Assembly: GCA_902515565.1 (NCBI GenBank)
Contig: CABXVR010000004.1
Coordinates: 1 to 64,000 of the forward strand
Reading direction: 5' to 3'
Length of the DNA: 64,000 nucleotides
From: an uncultured Bacteroidota bacterium
GTDB taxonomy: Bacteria; Bacteroidota; Bacteroidia; Flavobacteriales; Flavobacteriaceae
The notes under the pieces were generated by a model, which was given only the letters and a program-made list of their open reading frames with translations, searched no databases and was not told where the DNA came from. A program made the translations under genes and the position numbers. Positions 8,007 to 32,085 of this stretch are shown piece by piece (within the stretch, counting starts at the first letter, position 1; each line of letters opens with the position of its first letter).

Positions 8007-8672
8007 TTGCTCAATAACTTAAATAAAGATTGGAAAATTCATTTAAAAGAAGAGTTAGATAAAGACTACTTTTTTAATCTAACTACCAGAGTTAATCAAG
8101 AATATTCAAATTATATATGTTTTCCTCCAATTGATAATATATTTAATTCTCTAAATTTTTGTGTACTTTCTAAATTAAAGGTTGTTATAATAGGGCAGGA
8201 CCCTTATCATCAACAAAATCAAGCAAATGGATTATCTTTTTCTGTAGGTAAAGATGTAAAAATTCCACCATCTTTAAATAATATATTTAAGGAATTAAAT
8301 AGTGATATTAATAAACCTCTGCCAACAAATGGTGATCTTACTTATTTATCAAAACAAGGGGTTTTGCTATTAAATAGTTGTCTTTCGGTTAGGATGAGTT
8401 CTCCGGGAAGTCATTACAATTTTGGTTGGGAAATTTTTACCGATAAAATAATTTCAATTATTTCAGAAAAAAAAACTAACGTTGTTTTCTTACTTTGGGG
8501 AAATAAATCTATTTCAAAGTCTAAATTAATAGACACAAATAAACACTTAATACTCACTTCTGGTCATCCATCACCACTTAGCGCTAACAGAGGATATTGG
8601 TTTGGTAATAGGCATTTTAGTAAAACGAACGATTATTTAAAGAACAATGGCTTAAACCAAATATCTTGGTGA
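8007..8672 (+). CDS. ung: Uracil-DNA glycosylase, family 1
   Basis: Removes uracil from DNA to start base-excision repair. Contains the water-activating motif GQDPYH, with catalytic Asp at residue 65, followed by the uracil-binding region and the HPSPLSANRG loop with the catalytic His. The length of 221 residues is usual. No ATG or GTG occurs before the catalytic domain in this frame. The TTG at 8007 gives MLNNLNKDWKIHLKEEL, which aligns with the expected N-terminus, so a TTG start is chosen. It starts 8 bases after the symporter stop, consistent with translational coupling, and ends 2 bases from the convergent DUF5698 gene. Confidence 0.95.
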   Translation: MLNNLNKDWKIHLKEELDKDYFFNLTTRVNQEYSNYICFPPIDNIFNSLNFCVLSKLKVVIIGQDPYHQQNQANGLSFSVGKDVKIPPSLNNIFKELNSDINKPLPTNGDLTYLSKQGVLLLNSCLSVRMSSPGSHYNFGWEIFTDKIISIISEKKTNVVFLLWGNKSISKSKLIDTNKHLILTSGHPSPLSANRGYWFGNRHFSKTNDYLKNNGLNQISW

Positions 8673-8674
8673 TA

Positions 8675-9178
8675 TTATTTGTTAAGTGAAATAGGATTAA
8701 CCGCCTCTGTTGTTATATAAGCTTGAGGATTATTTTTGTTTATAATCTTTAAAACATTATTTAGTTTTTTTCTTGTGACAATACACCAATAAATCTTTAC
8801 AGCACCATCCCTACCTTCTCCATTAATTACAGTAACAGCGTATCCATTATCTCTTAATATTTTTGCCAAATTATTAGATTCATTTGGAATGAAAACTTTA
8901 ACAACCATACTTCCAACTCCAATTATGTTTTCTAAGTAAGATCCAAGTATAGTACCTGCAGCAAAACCAGCAGCATACCCTGCGATTAGAATTGGATCAG
9001 CTACATTTTGAATAACTTTCGATACAGCTATAATCCAAATAGCGGATTCTACTAAGCCAATAAAAGCTGCGTGATATGGTTTAGTCCTTGAAACTAATAA
9101 AGCTCTTAAAGTACCTAAACTTTGATCAGCAAGGCGTAATATAAAAATAAATACAGTAGAGGTTATAAGTTCGATAAT
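8675..9178 (-). CDS. DUF5698/DUF2179 (UPF0316-like) membrane protein with non-canonical start codon
   Basis: A frame with only ATG/GTG/TTG starts would give a 77-residue fragment from 8908. Reading upstream in the same frame gives 90 more residues, open to a stop at 9181-9179. They form the missing part of the family: a hydrophobic segment followed by ILRLADQSLGTLRALLVS, a second segment (VESAIWIIAVSKVIQNV) and a glycine-rich third (GYAAGFAAGTILGSYLE). The C-terminal part is the soluble DUF2179 domain. No ATG, GTG or TTG lies in the upstream part, so translation probably begins at ATT (9178), ATC, or the ATA at 9166 that overlaps the upstream TAA. It sits in an operon behind the nucleoside phosphorylase, overlapping its end by up to 16 bases. 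Function of the family is unknown. Confidence 0.8.
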   Translation of the reverse strand: MIELITSTVFIFILRLADQSLGTLRALLVSRTKPYHAAFIGLVESAIWIIAVSKVIQNVADPILIAGYAAGFAAGTILGSYLENIIGVGSMVVKVFIPNESNNLAKILRDNGYAVTVINGEGRDGAVKIYWCIVTRKKLNNVLKIINKNNPQAYITTEAVNPISLNK

Positions 9179-10038
9179 TTATCTAATGTTTGAAGGATTA
9201 ATTTATTAATTGTTTTAGTTGGTTTTTTACTATATGTGCCATTTTCTCTATTGGCTAATATTGCATTTAAAGAAATAGCATTATGACCTAATATTTTTGA
9301 CATTCCATAAATAATAGCAGTTTCCATTTCAAGATTTGTGACCCTATCGTTTGAAAAAGATATTTTCTTAATTTCACTAATAAAATCTAGGTTGGCAGTC
9401 TCTATTCTTAAAGATCTTCCTTGGCTACCATAAAACCCATTGCACGTGACGGCAACTCCAGTGCAATCGGAAACAGACTTAAAATGGTCAAATAGTTTGT
9501 CTGAGCAATTAAAACATATTGGAAGAAGTTTTTGATTATTAAATTTATAGTCATTTAAATAATCATTGACTTCATTGTACGTGTGGTCATTACTTATCTT
9601 GTAATTATTTAAGAAACCATCAATATCAATTGCTTTTGAATTAATCAGTAAAGAATCAATTGGTATGTCTTTTTGAATTGCACCAGATGTACCAATTCTT
9701 ATTAAATTAAGTTTAGTAAGGTTAGGTTTAAGTTTTCTGGTTTGAAAATCGATATTAACTAAGCTATCTAACTCATTAATTACAATATCAATATTGCCAG
9801 ATCCTATTCCAGTAGATATTATAGAAATTCTTTTGTTTTTATAAACTCCAGTTGTTGTTTTAAACTCACGATTAGTAACTGAAAATTCAATTGAATTAAA
9901 ATGTTTTGAAATTAATTCCACTCTTTGCGGGTCTCCAACTAATATAATAGAATTGGAAATATTGCTAGGTTTTAATTTTAGATGGTAAACACTACCATCA
10001 TCATTAAATATTAATTCAGATTCATTTTGATTTAACAT
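9163..10038 (-). CDS. Nucleoside phosphorylase, uridine phosphorylase-like
   Basis: A 291-residue PNP/UDP-family enzyme (phosphorolysis of nucleosides to base and ribose-1-phosphate). The phosphate-binding GDPQRVE motif is at about residues 35-41, the ISTGIGSGNIDI segment follows, and RIGTSGAI is the family's central glycine motif. NLEMETAIIYGM near residue 245 carries the ribose-binding Glu-Met-Glu signature. Overall it is closest to the uridine phosphorylase branch, but base specificity is not determined. It is preceded by the SUI1 gene after 8 bases, and its last bases overlap the DUF5698 frame. Confidence 0.85.
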   Translation of the reverse strand: MLNQNESELIFNDDGSVYHLKLKPSNISNSIILVGDPQRVELISKHFNSIEFSVTNREFKTTTGVYKNKRISIISTGIGSGNIDIVINELDSLVNIDFQTRKLKPNLTKLNLIRIGTSGAIQKDIPIDSLLINSKAIDIDGFLNNYKISNDHTYNEVNDYLNDYKFNNQKLLPICFNCSDKLFDHFKSVSDCTGVAVTCNGFYGSQGRSLRIETANLDFISEIKKISFSNDRVTNLEMETAIIYGMSKILGHNAISLNAILANRENGTYSKKPTKTINKLILQTLDKLSNL

Positions 10039-10046
10039 AGCTTATC

Positions 10047-10370
10047 TTAACCTCCAACTCTTTTTGTTTTAAAACCTTTTGAATGTAATATTTCCATTAT
10101 CTTGTCTCTATAGTCTCCTTGAATTATTATATAACCATCTTTTAAACTACCACCAACACTCAGTTTCTTTTTAAGTTCTTTTGCTATATTTTTCACCTCA
10201 ATATCATTAATTGTAAATCCCTCCAATATAGTCAATGCTTTTCCTTTTCTTTTTTCATACTTACATATTATGGGGTCAATTTGCAATGAACTAACTTCGT
10301 TTAATTCATAAGAGTTTTCAGTTAATTTATGATTAGGAAAATGTTTTTTTAGTTGATCTTTAAAATCCAT
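10047..10370 (-). CDS. SUI1/eIF1-like translation factor (YciH family)
   Basis: A 107-residue protein with the SUI1 fold: a basic beta strand (CKYEKRKGKALTILEGF), then KNIAKELKKKLSVGGSLKDG, which contains the conserved K-x-x-x-G-G-S/T loop, and a C-terminal IIIQGDYRDKIMEILHSKGF segment. Bacterial homologues such as YciH bind the small ribosomal subunit and are thought to influence start-site fidelity or stress translation. Its ATG overlaps the stop of the oxygenase gene by one base (TAATG), so the two are likely translationally coupled. The family is sure; physiological role in Bacteroidota is not established. Confidence 0.9.
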   Translation of the reverse strand: MDFKDQLKKHFPNHKLTENSYELNEVSSLQIDPIICKYEKRKGKALTILEGFTINDIEVKNIAKELKKKLSVGGSLKDGYIIIQGDYRDKIMEILHSKGFKTKRVGG

Positions 10371-11326
10371 TACTTTTTTAATAAACCTAATTCTACTAAT
10401 CTTTGATTTAAAAATTCTCCAGCTGTTATATCGTCAAAAGACTTCGGATTATTTTCATCAATACAAGATTCTAGTACGTCTAATTTCATATCACTTATTG
10501 GATGCATAAAAAATGGTATAGAATACCTTGATTTTTTCATCAAATCCTTTGAAGGATTAATCACTCTATGTACTGTAGATTTTAGTTTGTTGTTAGTGTG
10601 TCTTGATAACATGTCACCAACATTTATCATTAATTGATCTTTGGAAGCAATAGCATCAATCCATTCACCTTTATTGTTTTTTACTTGTAATCCCCTGCCT
10701 TGAGCACCCATTAAAAGTGTAATTAAGTTAATATCTCCGTGTGCAGCTGCTCTTACTGCATCTTTTGGTTTCTCTAAAATAGGAGGGTAGTGAATCGGTC
10801 TTAATATAGAATTTCCATTAACAATATATTTGTCAAAGTAAAATTCATCTAATCTTAAGTATAAGGCTAATGCCCTTAAAACATATTTTGAAGTTTTTTC
10901 TAATAACCTGTAGGTTTGTTTTCCAACAATATTGAATTGTTCATTTTCCGTGACTTCAACGTTTGAAGGATACTCTTTTAAGAGTTTATCATCATTTTCT
11001 ACATACTGACCAAAGTGCCAAAATTCTTTTAAATCTCCATGTTTACTACCTTTAGCTGATTCTTTTCCAAATGATACATAACCTCTTTGACCTGAGATAC
11101 CAGGAATCTCGTATTTATTTTTAATTTCTTGTGGTAAATCAAAGAAAGATCGTATTTCTTTATATAGTTTTTCATTAAAATTAGAATCTAAAAAGTGACC
11201 ATCAAGAGCAACAAAACCAATCTCTTCAAATGCTTTTCCAATTGATTCAACAAAATTATTTTTTTTATTAATATCTGAAGACAAAAAGTCAGCGAGATTT
11301 ACACTAGGAATATTATTTGTTTCCAT
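10370..11326 (-). CDS. 2-oxoglutarate/Fe(II)-dependent oxygenase, isopenicillin N synthase-like
   Basis: A 318-residue enzyme with an N-terminal DIOX_N domain (IPSVNLADF at the start) and a double-stranded beta-helix C-terminal domain. The iron ligands are HGD (HxD) followed about 55 residues later by the His in STVHRVINP, and RYSIPFFMHP supplies the Arg-x-Ser that binds 2-oxoglutarate. This architecture is shared with IPNS, ACC oxidase and gibberellin-type oxidases; no substrate can be assigned. It leads the minus-strand operon oxygenase-SUI1-phosphorylase-DUF5698. Its ATG faces the divergent E1 dehydrogenase gene across an AT-rich 118-base gap with no clear consensus promoter. Confidence 0.88.
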   Translation of the reverse strand: METNNIPSVNLADFLSSDINKKNNFVESIGKAFEEIGFVALDGHFLDSNFNEKLYKEIRSFFDLPQEIKNKYEIPGISGQRGYVSFGKESAKGSKHGDLKEFWHFGQYVENDDKLLKEYPSNVEVTENEQFNIVGKQTYRLLEKTSKYVLRALALYLRLDEFYFDKYIVNGNSILRPIHYPPILEKPKDAVRAAAHGDINLITLLMGAQGRGLQVKNNKGEWIDAIASKDQLMINVGDMLSRHTNNKLKSTVHRVINPSKDLMKKSRYSIPFFMHPISDMKLDVLESCIDENNPKSFDDITAGEFLNQRLVELGLLKK

Positions 11327-21984: not shown

Positions 21985-23385
21985 TTATTTAACTTTAGTT
22001 ATTTGTGCAATCAGCTCTGCTTCAGCACATAATTTTCCGTTTGAATAAGCATACCCTTGCATATGACATATACCTCTTCTGATAGGTGATATCAATGTAC
22101 ATTTAAAAATTATAGTATCACCTGGAAAGACCTTATTTTTAAATTTAACTTTATCTATTTTAGCAAAGAAAGTTAAATAATCTTCAGGGTTTTCGAATGT
22201 GTTTAAAACTAAAATACCTCCTATTTGTGCCATTGCTTCAACAATTAACACACCAGGCATTACTGGAAAACCTGGAAAATGGCCTTGAAAAAAAGTTTCG
22301 TTGATAGTAACATTTTTAACGCCGACCACATTAGAACTTGTTAGTTCATAAATTTTGTCAACAAATAAAAATGGTGGTCTATGTGGTAAGACTTCCATGA
22401 TTCTGTTTGTATCCATTATAGGATCACTATTTAAATCGACAATAGGCACATTGTTTTTCTTTTCAATCTTAATTATATCACTTATTTTTTTAGCAAATTT
22501 AGTATTTACATAATGCCCAGGTTTATTAGCTATAACCTTACCTCTTAGCCTAACTCCTGCTAAAGCTAAATCTCCAATAACATCTAGTAATTTATGTCTA
22601 GCAGCTTCGTTTGGATGATGTAAAGTCAAATTGTCTAATATTCCATTTGACTTAACTTTAATATCATTTTTATTGAAAGCGATTTTTAACTTTTCCATAG
22701 TAGGTTTAGACAATTCTTTATCTACATAAACAATTGCGTTATTTAAATCCCCACCCTTAATTAAACCTTCATTTAATAACATTTCAATTTCGTGAAGAAA
22801 ACTAAAAGTTCTAGAATTTGAAATTTCGTCTTTAAAATCTTCAATTTTATTTAAGGTTGCATTTTGAGTACCTAATATTTTAGTCCCAAAATCTACCATT
22901 GTAGTAATTTCGTAATGATCACTTGGAATAATAGTAATTTCACTTCCAGACTTTTCATCTTTATATGAGATTACATTCTTAACAACATATTCTTTTCTAA
23001 ATTGTTCTAAGTCTATTTTACCGGCAGATTCTAATGCTTCAACGAAATACTTTGAAGAACCATCCATTATTGGAGGTTCAGAAGCATTTAATTCTATATT
23101 GACATTATCTATTTCTAGACCAACCAATGCTGCTAATACATGCTCGCATGTCTGTATTGTTACACCATTTTTTTCAAGAACTGTACCTCTTTGAGTACTA
23201 GTCACAAAGTTAATATTAGCTTCAATGATTGGATTACCATCTAAATCAACTCTTGTAAAAGTATATCCATTATTAGATTTAGCAGGCTTAAACGTTAATT
23301 TAACTTCTTGCCCAGTATGCAAACCAACTCCACTTAATGAGATAGGTTTAGATATTGTAGTTTGTTTAATCTCGGTAGTAATCAT
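21985..23385 (-). CDS. lpxC/fabZ: Bifunctional LpxC deacetylase/FabZ dehydratase
   Basis: A 466-residue fusion characteristic of Bacteroidota. Residues 1 to about 310 form LpxC, the zinc deacetylase of lipid A synthesis, with TCEHVLAALVGL (zinc His) and HHPNEAARHKLLDVIGDLAL (zinc His/Asp region). The C-terminal part, from about residue 325, is FabZ, the 3-hydroxyacyl-ACP dehydratase, with catalytic His in GHFPGFPVMPGVLIVEAMAQ. The fusion keeps lipid A and phospholipid synthesis in fixed ratio because both draw on 3-hydroxyacyl-ACP; that role is an inference from the family. It overlaps the lpxD stop by one base. Confidence 0.97.
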   Translation of the reverse strand: MITTEIKQTTISKPISLSGVGLHTGQEVKLTFKPAKSNNGYTFTRVDLDGNPIIEANINFVTSTQRGTVLEKNGVTIQTCEHVLAALVGLEIDNVNIELNASEPPIMDGSSKYFVEALESAGKIDLEQFRKEYVVKNVISYKDEKSGSEITIIPSDHYEITTMVDFGTKILGTQNATLNKIEDFKDEISNSRTFSFLHEIEMLLNEGLIKGGDLNNAIVYVDKELSKPTMEKLKIAFNKNDIKVKSNGILDNLTLHHPNEAARHKLLDVIGDLALAGVRLRGKVIANKPGHYVNTKFAKKISDIIKIEKKNNVPIVDLNSDPIMDTNRIMEVLPHRPPFLFVDKIYELTSSNVVGVKNVTINETFFQGHFPGFPVMPGVLIVEAMAQIGGILVLNTFENPEDYLTFFAKIDKVKFKNKVFPGDTIIFKCTLISPIRRGICHMQGYAYSNGKLCAEAELIAQITKVK

Positions 23386-24368
23386 TATTTTTTGTTTAAA
23401 TTTTTAAAATGCACATAAGATCTATTAAAATCACTAGAATTAAATGCAGGAGAACCTTTTACAGTAGTATTACTTTTAATATTGTTAGTTACTGCAGATT
23501 TACCCATAATTTTAACATTATCTCCGATATTAAGATGTCCACTAACCCCGGATTGGCCACCTAGTTGGCAGTTCATACCGATGGTAGAAGAGCCAGCAAT
23601 TCCAGATTGAGCTGCAATTACAGTATTACTTCCCACAATAACATTGTGGGCAATTTGAACTTGGTTATCTAATTTAACACCTTCATGAATAATTGTGGAA
23701 CCTAAGGTTGCTCTATCTATTGTTGTTAAAGCACCTACGCTTACATTATCTTTAATAATTACATTCCCAATTTGAGGTATTTTTATATAAGTACCCGTTT
23801 TGTCAGGTGCAAAACCAAAACCATCAGATCCAATGATTGAGTTTGAATTAATTATGCAATTGTTTCCAATAACACAATCATTTAAGATTTTTACACCAGA
23901 AAATATTTCTGTATTACTTCCAATTATTACATTTTCTCCAATAAAGACATTTTCATGGATTTTTACGTTATCGTGAAGTGTTGTATTTGCGGAAATTGTA
24001 GAAAAAGAACCAACATAAACTCCGTTTGAAATGTTTGATGTTTCTGAAATACTTGACAGTTTACTAATGCCGGCTTGGACTTTTTTAGTTTTGTTAAATA
24101 AATGTAACATCTTAACAAATCCGATATATGCGTTCTCTACTCTAATTATTGCTGGCCTAATAGCATTATCTGTATAGAAATCACTATTAACAACTAATAT
24201 TGAAGCTTTAGTGTTATAAACATATTGAGTGTATTTATTGTTTGAAAGAAACGTGACAGAATCATCATTTGCCTCTTGTATTTTTGCAATATTAGTGACC
24301 TCAATCTTAGGATCACCCTCAAGTTTACCATCTAAATATTCTGCTAATTTTGAAGCACTATAATTCAT
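23385..24368 (-). CDS. lpxD: UDP-3-O-acylglucosamine N-acyltransferase LpxD
   Basis: Third lipid A step, adding the N-linked 3-hydroxyacyl chain. An N-terminal uridine-binding domain ([19 protein letters not shown]) is followed by a long hexapeptide beta helix. The catalytic His lies in [14 protein letters not shown] and the C-terminus is a short helical extension. ATG 24368 is chosen over the ATG three codons upstream because it gives the typical N-terminus and because a TATTTTTG box at 24375-24382 lies between them. If that box is used, the mRNA would be nearly leaderless. It heads the lipid A-efp-sucD-fabG run. Confidence 0.95.
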
Positions 24369-24374
24369 ACAATG

Positions 24375-24382
24375 CAAAAATA
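24375..24382 (-). promoter_or_regulatory. -7 box (TATTTTTG) upstream of lpxD
   Basis: An exact TAnnTTTG on the minus strand, 6 bases before the lpxD ATG. No TTG is found at the right distance upstream, so this is a weak call. If it is real, the transcript would be leaderless or nearly so. Confidence 0.25.
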
Positions 24383-24482
24383 TGAAAAATAAGATAAAAC
24401 ATACCTTAATTGATAATGTATGATTATAATAATTGCTTAAATTTATACGTTTTATATAAATAATAATTATAATTACTTAACC

Positions 24483-30896: not shown

Positions 30897-31964
30897 CTAA
30901 ATTTTAAGGGATTTAATTAAAGATTCATCCATTTTCGAGCCTATCTTAAAAACTTTTGAATTGATGATTTTTAAATGATTAATTGGAAATACAACTTCTT
31001 TGTGACCTATGAAATTATCTAAATTTCCTATGGATTCAATATAAGGAACAAATAAAATAGAATTATCTATGAGTATTTCCTTGTAATTAATTCCAATATT
31101 AATTATTGAACCATCAATTGGTACTTTTTTTAAAATAATGTCATAAAATCTTTCTTTATTTTTTGGAATTAATTCATATGTATCTGCTTCAACTTTATCA
31201 TTGATTTTACTTGAAATTAATTCCAGAGCAATGACAAGGGAAAAAAACATATACTTTCTAGTTTCTTCTCTGTTGTAATCGTTTTCAAAAAAACCAGATT
31301 CAAATAAAATTGTTGAAGAACCTTTCTTTTGAAAATGATCTCCAAAACAATTTTCATTATAATCATCATTATATAATCTTATTCTATCATTTATAACACT
31401 AGATAGTTTCATATACATATGCTCAATTATATACATAGACTTACTTCTAGTACTGTTAATAGACCCTTTTGAATCATAAGATGGAGAAAGGAAACTTAAC
31501 CCTGAAGGATTCAAATCGTTATCACTGCCATAGATAGTTCTCTGATCGTGAAGGTTGAAACAATAATCTGGTTTTATTTTCAGAAAATAATCATTTAGTA
31601 TTCTAGATTCTGGTTGAGAATTGATTTTAGCATCTCTATTTAAATCAACTTTATTATAATTCTCTCTTGTATAAATCCTAGCTCCATCTGGATTCAATAT
31701 AGGGATTAAGTGGAGTGTGCATGCATTTAAAATATTTAAAAACTCGTTGTTATTTAAAGCATTAATAAAATCAAGTAAACTTTTTGTTGAGGTGGGTTCG
31801 TTTCCATGCATTTGCGACCAAGCAAGAACTTTAATATTTCCATTACCAACCTTAATAACATTTATATCTTCATTATTAACACTGTAACCAATTTTACTAA
31901 TTTTAAATATAGAACTTAACCGATTTAAATGTAAATCATCATTTGTCAAATATTTACTAGACAA
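30897..31964 (-). CDS. M14 family zinc carboxypeptidase-like metallopeptidase
   Basis: A peptidase of the M14 (funnelin) family, 355 residues from the TTG at 31964. Zinc ligands are in QMHGNEPTSTK (His-x-x-Glu) and FNLHDQRT (second His); VDLNRDA is the substrate-binding Asn-Arg motif; and LFESGFFENDY holds the catalytic Glu region. No signal peptide is evident, suggesting a cytoplasmic enzyme. The frame remains open upstream to 32012 without ATG, and that extension seems to continue the family's N-terminal alignment, so the true start may be further upstream at a non-standard codon. Substrate unknown. Confidence 0.82.
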   Translation of the reverse strand: MSSKYLTNDDLHLNRLSSIFKISKIGYSVNNEDINVIKVGNGNIKVLAWSQMHGNEPTSTKSLLDFINALNNNEFLNILNACTLHLIPILNPDGARIYTRENYNKVDLNRDAKINSQPESRILNDYFLKIKPDYCFNLHDQRTIYGSDNDLNPSGLSFLSPSYDSKGSINSTRSKSMYIIEHMYMKLSSVINDRIRLYNDDYNENCFGDHFQKKGSSTILFESGFFENDYNREETRKYMFFSLVIALELISSKINDKVEADTYELIPKNKERFYDIILKKVPIDGSIINIGINYKEILIDNSILFVPYIESIGNLDNFIGHKEVVFPINHLKIINSKVFKIGSKMDESLIKSLKI

Positions 31965-32085
31965 GTGACTTATTCTTGATTTGTTAAAAATATTTGTTAA
32001 ACGTTTTATGATTTATTCTTTTTTTATGATAAGAGCTAAGTTATAATATTTAATTAAATTGCAGCTTAAATGAATTATTTTAAAT

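Follow-up and report, generated by a model that had tools for sequence, protein, structure and literature searches.

In Escherichia coli, infC has a well-known near-cognate start, AUU, and pcnB likewise starts at AUU; to our knowledge, few natural cases of AUC, AUU or AUA starts have been proven, and such starts escape gene finders restricted to ATG, GTG and TTG. According to one report, natural near-cognate AUN starts, among them the AUA of S. aureus infC and the start of pcnB, keep translation low and are modulated by IF3 (PMC13009471). The same report describes ccpN (AUA) and cvfC1 (AUU) of S. aureus, whose conserved non-canonical starts were shown to lower initiation, and where extended Shine-Dalgarno motifs direct the weak start (PMC13009471). 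A second group of systems comprises coupled gene pairs, in which the start of the second gene lies inside the end of the first as ATGA or TGATG, the arrangement being co-directed and conserved (PMC6728339 and PMC12548453). Bacteroidota are described as doing without Shine-Dalgarno sequences, also in overlapping pairs, and an A at position -3 is favoured at the starts of F. johnsoniae (PMC6847099 and PMC6728339; for the base preference, PMC6847099).

The locus considered here lies in a stretch of 64,000 nucleotides (the window) from an uncultured member of the Flavobacteriaceae (assembly GCA_902515565.1, contig CABXVR010000004.1, positions 1 to 64,000). Comparative sequence evidence supports a real full-length gene, with a conserved non-canonical start that we infer, and the case is another member of the already known near-cognate class. 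As in infC and pcnB of E. coli and in infC of S. aureus, the start would be a near-cognate AUN codon; in contrast to these, the candidate is AUC, the gene encodes a membrane protein, the start is situated inside the upstream gene and no Shine-Dalgarno sequence was seen. It differs from ccpN and cvfC1 in that Bacteroidota do not use extended Shine-Dalgarno motifs (PMC6847099 and PMC6728339). The likeness to coupled pairs lies in a second start within the end of a co-directed first gene, conserved between species; here, however, an ATC with a 13-base overlap (or an ATA within ATAA) takes the place of NTG, and the coupling is putative.

The open frame and its domains

The features of the locus are compiled in Table 1. 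Both domains of the encoded protein exceed the curated Pfam cut-offs, which places it in the DUF5698/DUF2179 family: PF18955 scores 65.5 bits against a cut-off of 27.5 (E 6e-18, residues 23-79), and PF10035 scores 35.1 bits against 22.8 (E 1.2e-8, residues 114-161). Membrane proteins combining the two domains are presumably those named UPF0316/YebE-like; compared with them, the protein itself shows nothing unusual, the differences being the start and the location of its gene. The literature searched contained no mention of DUF5698, and the viral contigs scanned yielded no relative. In the predicted structure (mean pLDDT 89, pTM 0.64), helices at residues 2-30, 34-57 and 62-86 are followed by a mixed, PII-like domain. 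The best solved folds for this model are PstA, DarA and GlnK (E 2e-4 to ~1e-3), and 3hlu, a DUF2179 protein, is matched both by sequence (E 1.8e-4) and by fold (rank 28); the TM-scores of these fold matches, by query length, are ~0.3-0.4. The three long helices of the model probably sit in the membrane, and the membrane-bound protein may possibly have a ligand-sensing role.

Table 1. Features of the DUF5698 locus and its neighbourhood (window coordinates)
Feature	Position	Strand	Remark
DUF5698+DUF2179 membrane-protein open frame	8675..9178	-	Coordinates include the stop; of 167 codons, 166 are probably translated
DUF2179 domain (PF10035)	8696..8839	-	Pfam; PII-like fold by model
First canonical start, ATG codon 91, internal	8906..8908	-	Would yield a 77-residue fragment
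DUF5698 domain (PF18955), helical	8942..9112	-	Pfam and structure model
Stretch read in both frames, 15 nt, identical in three species	9163..9177	-	Second-longest invariant run in 1364 nt
Upstream PNP_UDP_1 nucleoside phosphorylase family gene	9163..10038	-	13-base overlap of its 3' end with the DUF5698 gene, counted from the proposed start
ATA, rival start	9164..9166	-	Overlaps the upstream stop as ATAA (-4 spacing); conserved in 3/3
ATC, proposed start codon (alignment column 2)	9173..9175	-	ATG in outgroup, ATC in genus
ATT, named by the first-pass annotation	9176..9178	-	CTT in both congeners
In-frame stop TAA directly 5' of the open frame	9179..9181	-	TAG in both congeners
SUI1-domain (translation initiation factor SUI1) gene, same cluster	10047..10370	-
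Presumed oxygenase-like gene, head of cluster	10370..11326	-	Named by eye and recall

A first-pass annotation of the window had proposed a full DUF5698 gene without a standard start. It read the frame correctly (open from 9178 to 8675 behind a TAA at 9181-9179, with codon 91, at 8908, as its first ATG), and the 77-residue fragment that it predicted is what a caller limited to ATG, GTG and TTG reports; with a start at 8908, the entire DUF5698 half would be lost. Codons 1-90 of the frame 9178-8675 contain neither ATG, GTG nor TTG and, by reading, no CTG either. Taken alone, this absence is only mildly unusual: the three canonical codons make up 3.1% of the internal codons of 24 window genes, and at the codon frequencies of these genes the chance of 90 codons without any of them is ~0.057.

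The start codon in the genus and its relatives

The gene is present in three of the five genomes of the genus, the window's own included, and the proteins of the two congeners (G001 and G003), which come from separate assemblies, are 87 and 86% identical to that of the window. The other two genomes (G002 and G004), both incomplete, gave no match to the gene, and the G004 contig expected to lead to the region stops short of it. A tree of 29 sequences, from which the first five alignment columns had been left out, recovers the genus as a clade with support of 100/100. All three members carry an in-frame stop immediately 5' of the frame, so there is no longer form of the protein, and codons 1-26 are devoid of ATG, GTG and TTG in each of them. 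The first canonical start is a TTG at codon 27 in G001 and the ATG at codon 91 in G003; this ATG is shared by all three species. Since the two congeners, at dS of 1.3 and 2.0 from the window, reach their first canonical start only there, the absence is more than chance.

Homologues from outside the genus point to the ATC as the start. The outgroup set consisted of those with at least 50% identity (50-80%), reduced to 40 distinct DNA sequences: in all 40, alignment column 2 is ATG, whereas the three genus members have ATC there. Six distant homologues from other Flavobacteriaceae (L200-L205, ~31% identity), which stand outside the count of 40, have an ATG 14-15 codons earlier than column 2; the genus is unable to start at that position because of the stop at column 0. 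AUC at 9175-9173 is thus probably, if by no means certainly, the actual start codon. The first-pass annotation had left it out, although it is the best-supported candidate, and had named ATT 9178 and ATA 9166 as the sole options; the former is not conserved, while the latter keeps its place as a candidate coupled start. The surroundings of the ATC resemble those of other starts in predicted structure (MFE -1.2, compared with a mean of -1.43 at 39 window ATG starts), whereas the internal ATG at 8908 (-3.5) has stronger structure than ~92% of these 39. At position -3 from the ATC the window has A but both congeners have C, and only one of the three therefore follows the F. johnsoniae preference for A. 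No Shine-Dalgarno sequence was seen by eye.

One DUF5698 homologue of the outgroup set (L038, apparently the same as L062/L066) is divided between overlapping frames (query 2-74 in one, 62-167 in the other) with its N-terminus intact; the split may be a frameshift either in the gene or in the assembly.

The dual-coding overlap

The overlap with the phosphorylase gene, 13 bases when counted from ATC, is co-directed and kept in all three genus members. The 15-base stretch TTATCGAACTTATAA is invariant across the three species; across the two genes (1364 bases), 71% of the sites are invariant, and so are four of 1350 segments of 15 bases. Two of its codons are seldom used in the window: TCG makes up 2.5% of Ser and ATC 9.3% of Ile. 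None of the 17 loci examined from other genera has the phosphorylase tail LSNL; part of the constraint therefore probably stems from the second frame. Dual coding is supported, and invariance alone does not separate ATC from ATA, as nearly each base of the overlap is fixed by either frame. A single base change could restore an ATG at the cost of a Ser to Trp exchange in the variable phosphorylase tail; it has not occurred.

A start at ATA 9166 would be the non-AUG equivalent of an ATGA overlap and would make the protein three residues shorter; it is a possible start, but a distinctly less probable one. The codon is kept in all three genus members, the infC gene of the same genomes probably starts at ATA, and two statements of PMC12548453 are in its favour: the -4 spacing is the commonest among closely spaced gene pairs, and re-initiating ribosomes at the coat-lysis junction of phage fr used the start nearest the stop. 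However, the phosphorylase codons TTA TAA dictate the ATA, and none of 26 outgroup alignment rows has Met in this column. All three species retain, in the Glu-Leu codons that precede the ATA, the residues common in the outgroup; untranslated codons would have no need of this, although the overlapping frame may also preserve them.

Selection on the N-terminal half

For codons 6-90, the three pairs (the first two being the window and its congeners) have dN of 0.060, 0.066 and 0.016 and dS of 1.3, 2.0 and 0.54, which puts dN/dS of the N-terminal half at ~0.05 or less. The C-terminal part has dN of 0.100 and 0.113 between the window and its congeners, and its constraint is weaker in every pair. 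The N-terminal half is thus under strong purifying selection, and we take it to be translated. The congeners, the selection and the outgroup alignment together bear out the full DUF5698 gene without a standard start.

Decay of the gene, or production of the C-terminal DUF2179 part only, from ATG 8908, is very improbable: this ATG is present in all three species, yet the N-terminal half is the more conserved part, and no homologue among the loci examined starts at 8908. Slightly less credible still is a phosphorylase-DUF5698 fusion produced by -1 ribosomal frameshifting in the overlap. Passing from one frame to the other would indeed be a -1 step within a shared stretch of a few codons, but TTA TCG AAC TTA TAA, the whole stretch between both stops, contains on reading no X XXY YYZ slippery heptamer, and the ATG at column 2 in 40 distinct outgroup sequences argues against it. 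That the start codon was lost through a sequencing or assembly error is hardly conceivable, even though the window comes from a draft genome with an estimated completeness of 65%, given two other assemblies with the identical ATC and the identical overlap, and no indel in either congener restores an ATG.

Proposed mechanism of initiation

The AUC start could operate in the following manner: The full-length three-helix membrane protein with its PII-like DUF2179 domain would be translated from AUC 9175-9173, which stands at the place of the relatives' AUG, presumably following an AUG to AUC change on the genus stem. Ribosomes that end translation of the phosphorylase at its stop (9165-9163) would be delivered to the AUC site, where the codon would be decoded by the initiator tRNA. 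Although weak, the near-cognate start may then supply enough protein at a low level with no need of a Shine-Dalgarno sequence, the function of which is likely replaced here by the ribosomes of the upstream gene.

Near-cognate initiation is plausible in the genus since its infC also lacks a canonical start: in all five genomes (L094-L098), ATG, GTG and TTG are absent from the N-terminus and an ATA is conserved. The gene was matched in 59 of 60 genomes; 34 loci were read (5 from the genus, 29 others), of which 23 were parsed and 11 missed. All 23 (the 5 of the genus and 18 from other Flavobacteriales) are without ATG, GTG and TTG in at least the first 28 codons. The likely start, read for 21 of the 23, is ATA in the 5 genus loci and in 14 others (one of these seen as a bare ATA) and CTG in 2; the usual candidate among the loci read (L094-L098, L163-L191) is an ATA before GCA ATT/ATA, and both CTG genomes belong to another family.

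The SUI1 class controls start-codon choice in eukaryotes. The presence of a SUI1 gene in the same cluster and the near-cognate start of infC itself raise the idea, in our view an unlikely one, that the AUC start might serve as a stringency sensor, the output of DUF5698 rising when start-codon discrimination by IF3 or SUI1 is relaxed. The peptidase M14 gene of the window (see below) may be a second target of such sensing.

Frequency and significance of such starts

When the 62 best-scoring frames of the window were compared with the contigs of its congeners, only two, DUF5698 and the M14 peptidase, were judged by eye to be coding ahead of their first canonical start. A larger sample of 549 frames from four genomes (196 of them from G000) gave 52 rows, most of which were judged by eye, without automation, to be antisense frames or leaders; the same two genes were left. 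This frame census did not pick up infC. The peptidase case is weaker than that of DUF5698: the gene (30897-32012, minus strand) has no ATG until codon 68, its frame opens TAA ATC ATA in the window and TAA ATC ATC in G004, and the first TTG is codon 17 in both, while the orthologues in G001 and G003 have an ATG near the start. It may start at TTG 17, and a second near-cognate start is possible.

In a further frame, 23385-24476, both species reach a canonical start only at codon 34, and the sequence before it is conserved; this part was read as a leader because its synonymous divergence is low, with pS of 0.22 compared with 0.59 in the gene (G004/G003).

With the ATG visible in 40 relatives and the ATC retained by three species despite dS >1, a start of this kind would seem capable of persisting through evolution, here in a phylum without Shine-Dalgarno sequences. 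More cases may be found in alignments of homologues, by looking for frames closed off by a stop on the 5' side in which AUN takes the place of the Met column.

Gene cluster and origin

Among 17 phosphorylase loci of other genera, 15 have a SUI1 gene and 12 an oxygenase-like gene close to the phosphorylase (flanks of ~1.5 kb, an intervening gene being possible); the cluster is therefore older than the genus. DUF5698 stands downstream of it only in the three genus genomes among the loci examined: the phosphorylase, SUI1 and oxygenase-like genes are all absent from the other DUF5698 loci examined, with flanks of 1.5-3 kb. In the first searches, the genus stood alone in its family (5/60 genomes; 29/395 of the order); a search of 397 genomes of the family found 18 with a match. 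Column 2 is ATG in all six loci of three further small-genome genera. A single ATG to ATC change on the genus stem would be the simplest account. Horizontal transfer from family f11 is not claimed; close homologues occur in the three further small-genome genera.

On the other side of the DUF5698 gene, a uracil-DNA glycosylase gene (8007-8672, plus strand) converges on it, two bases separating the stops; it seems to be started by a TTG, codon 5 of its frame, which is also found in both congeners.
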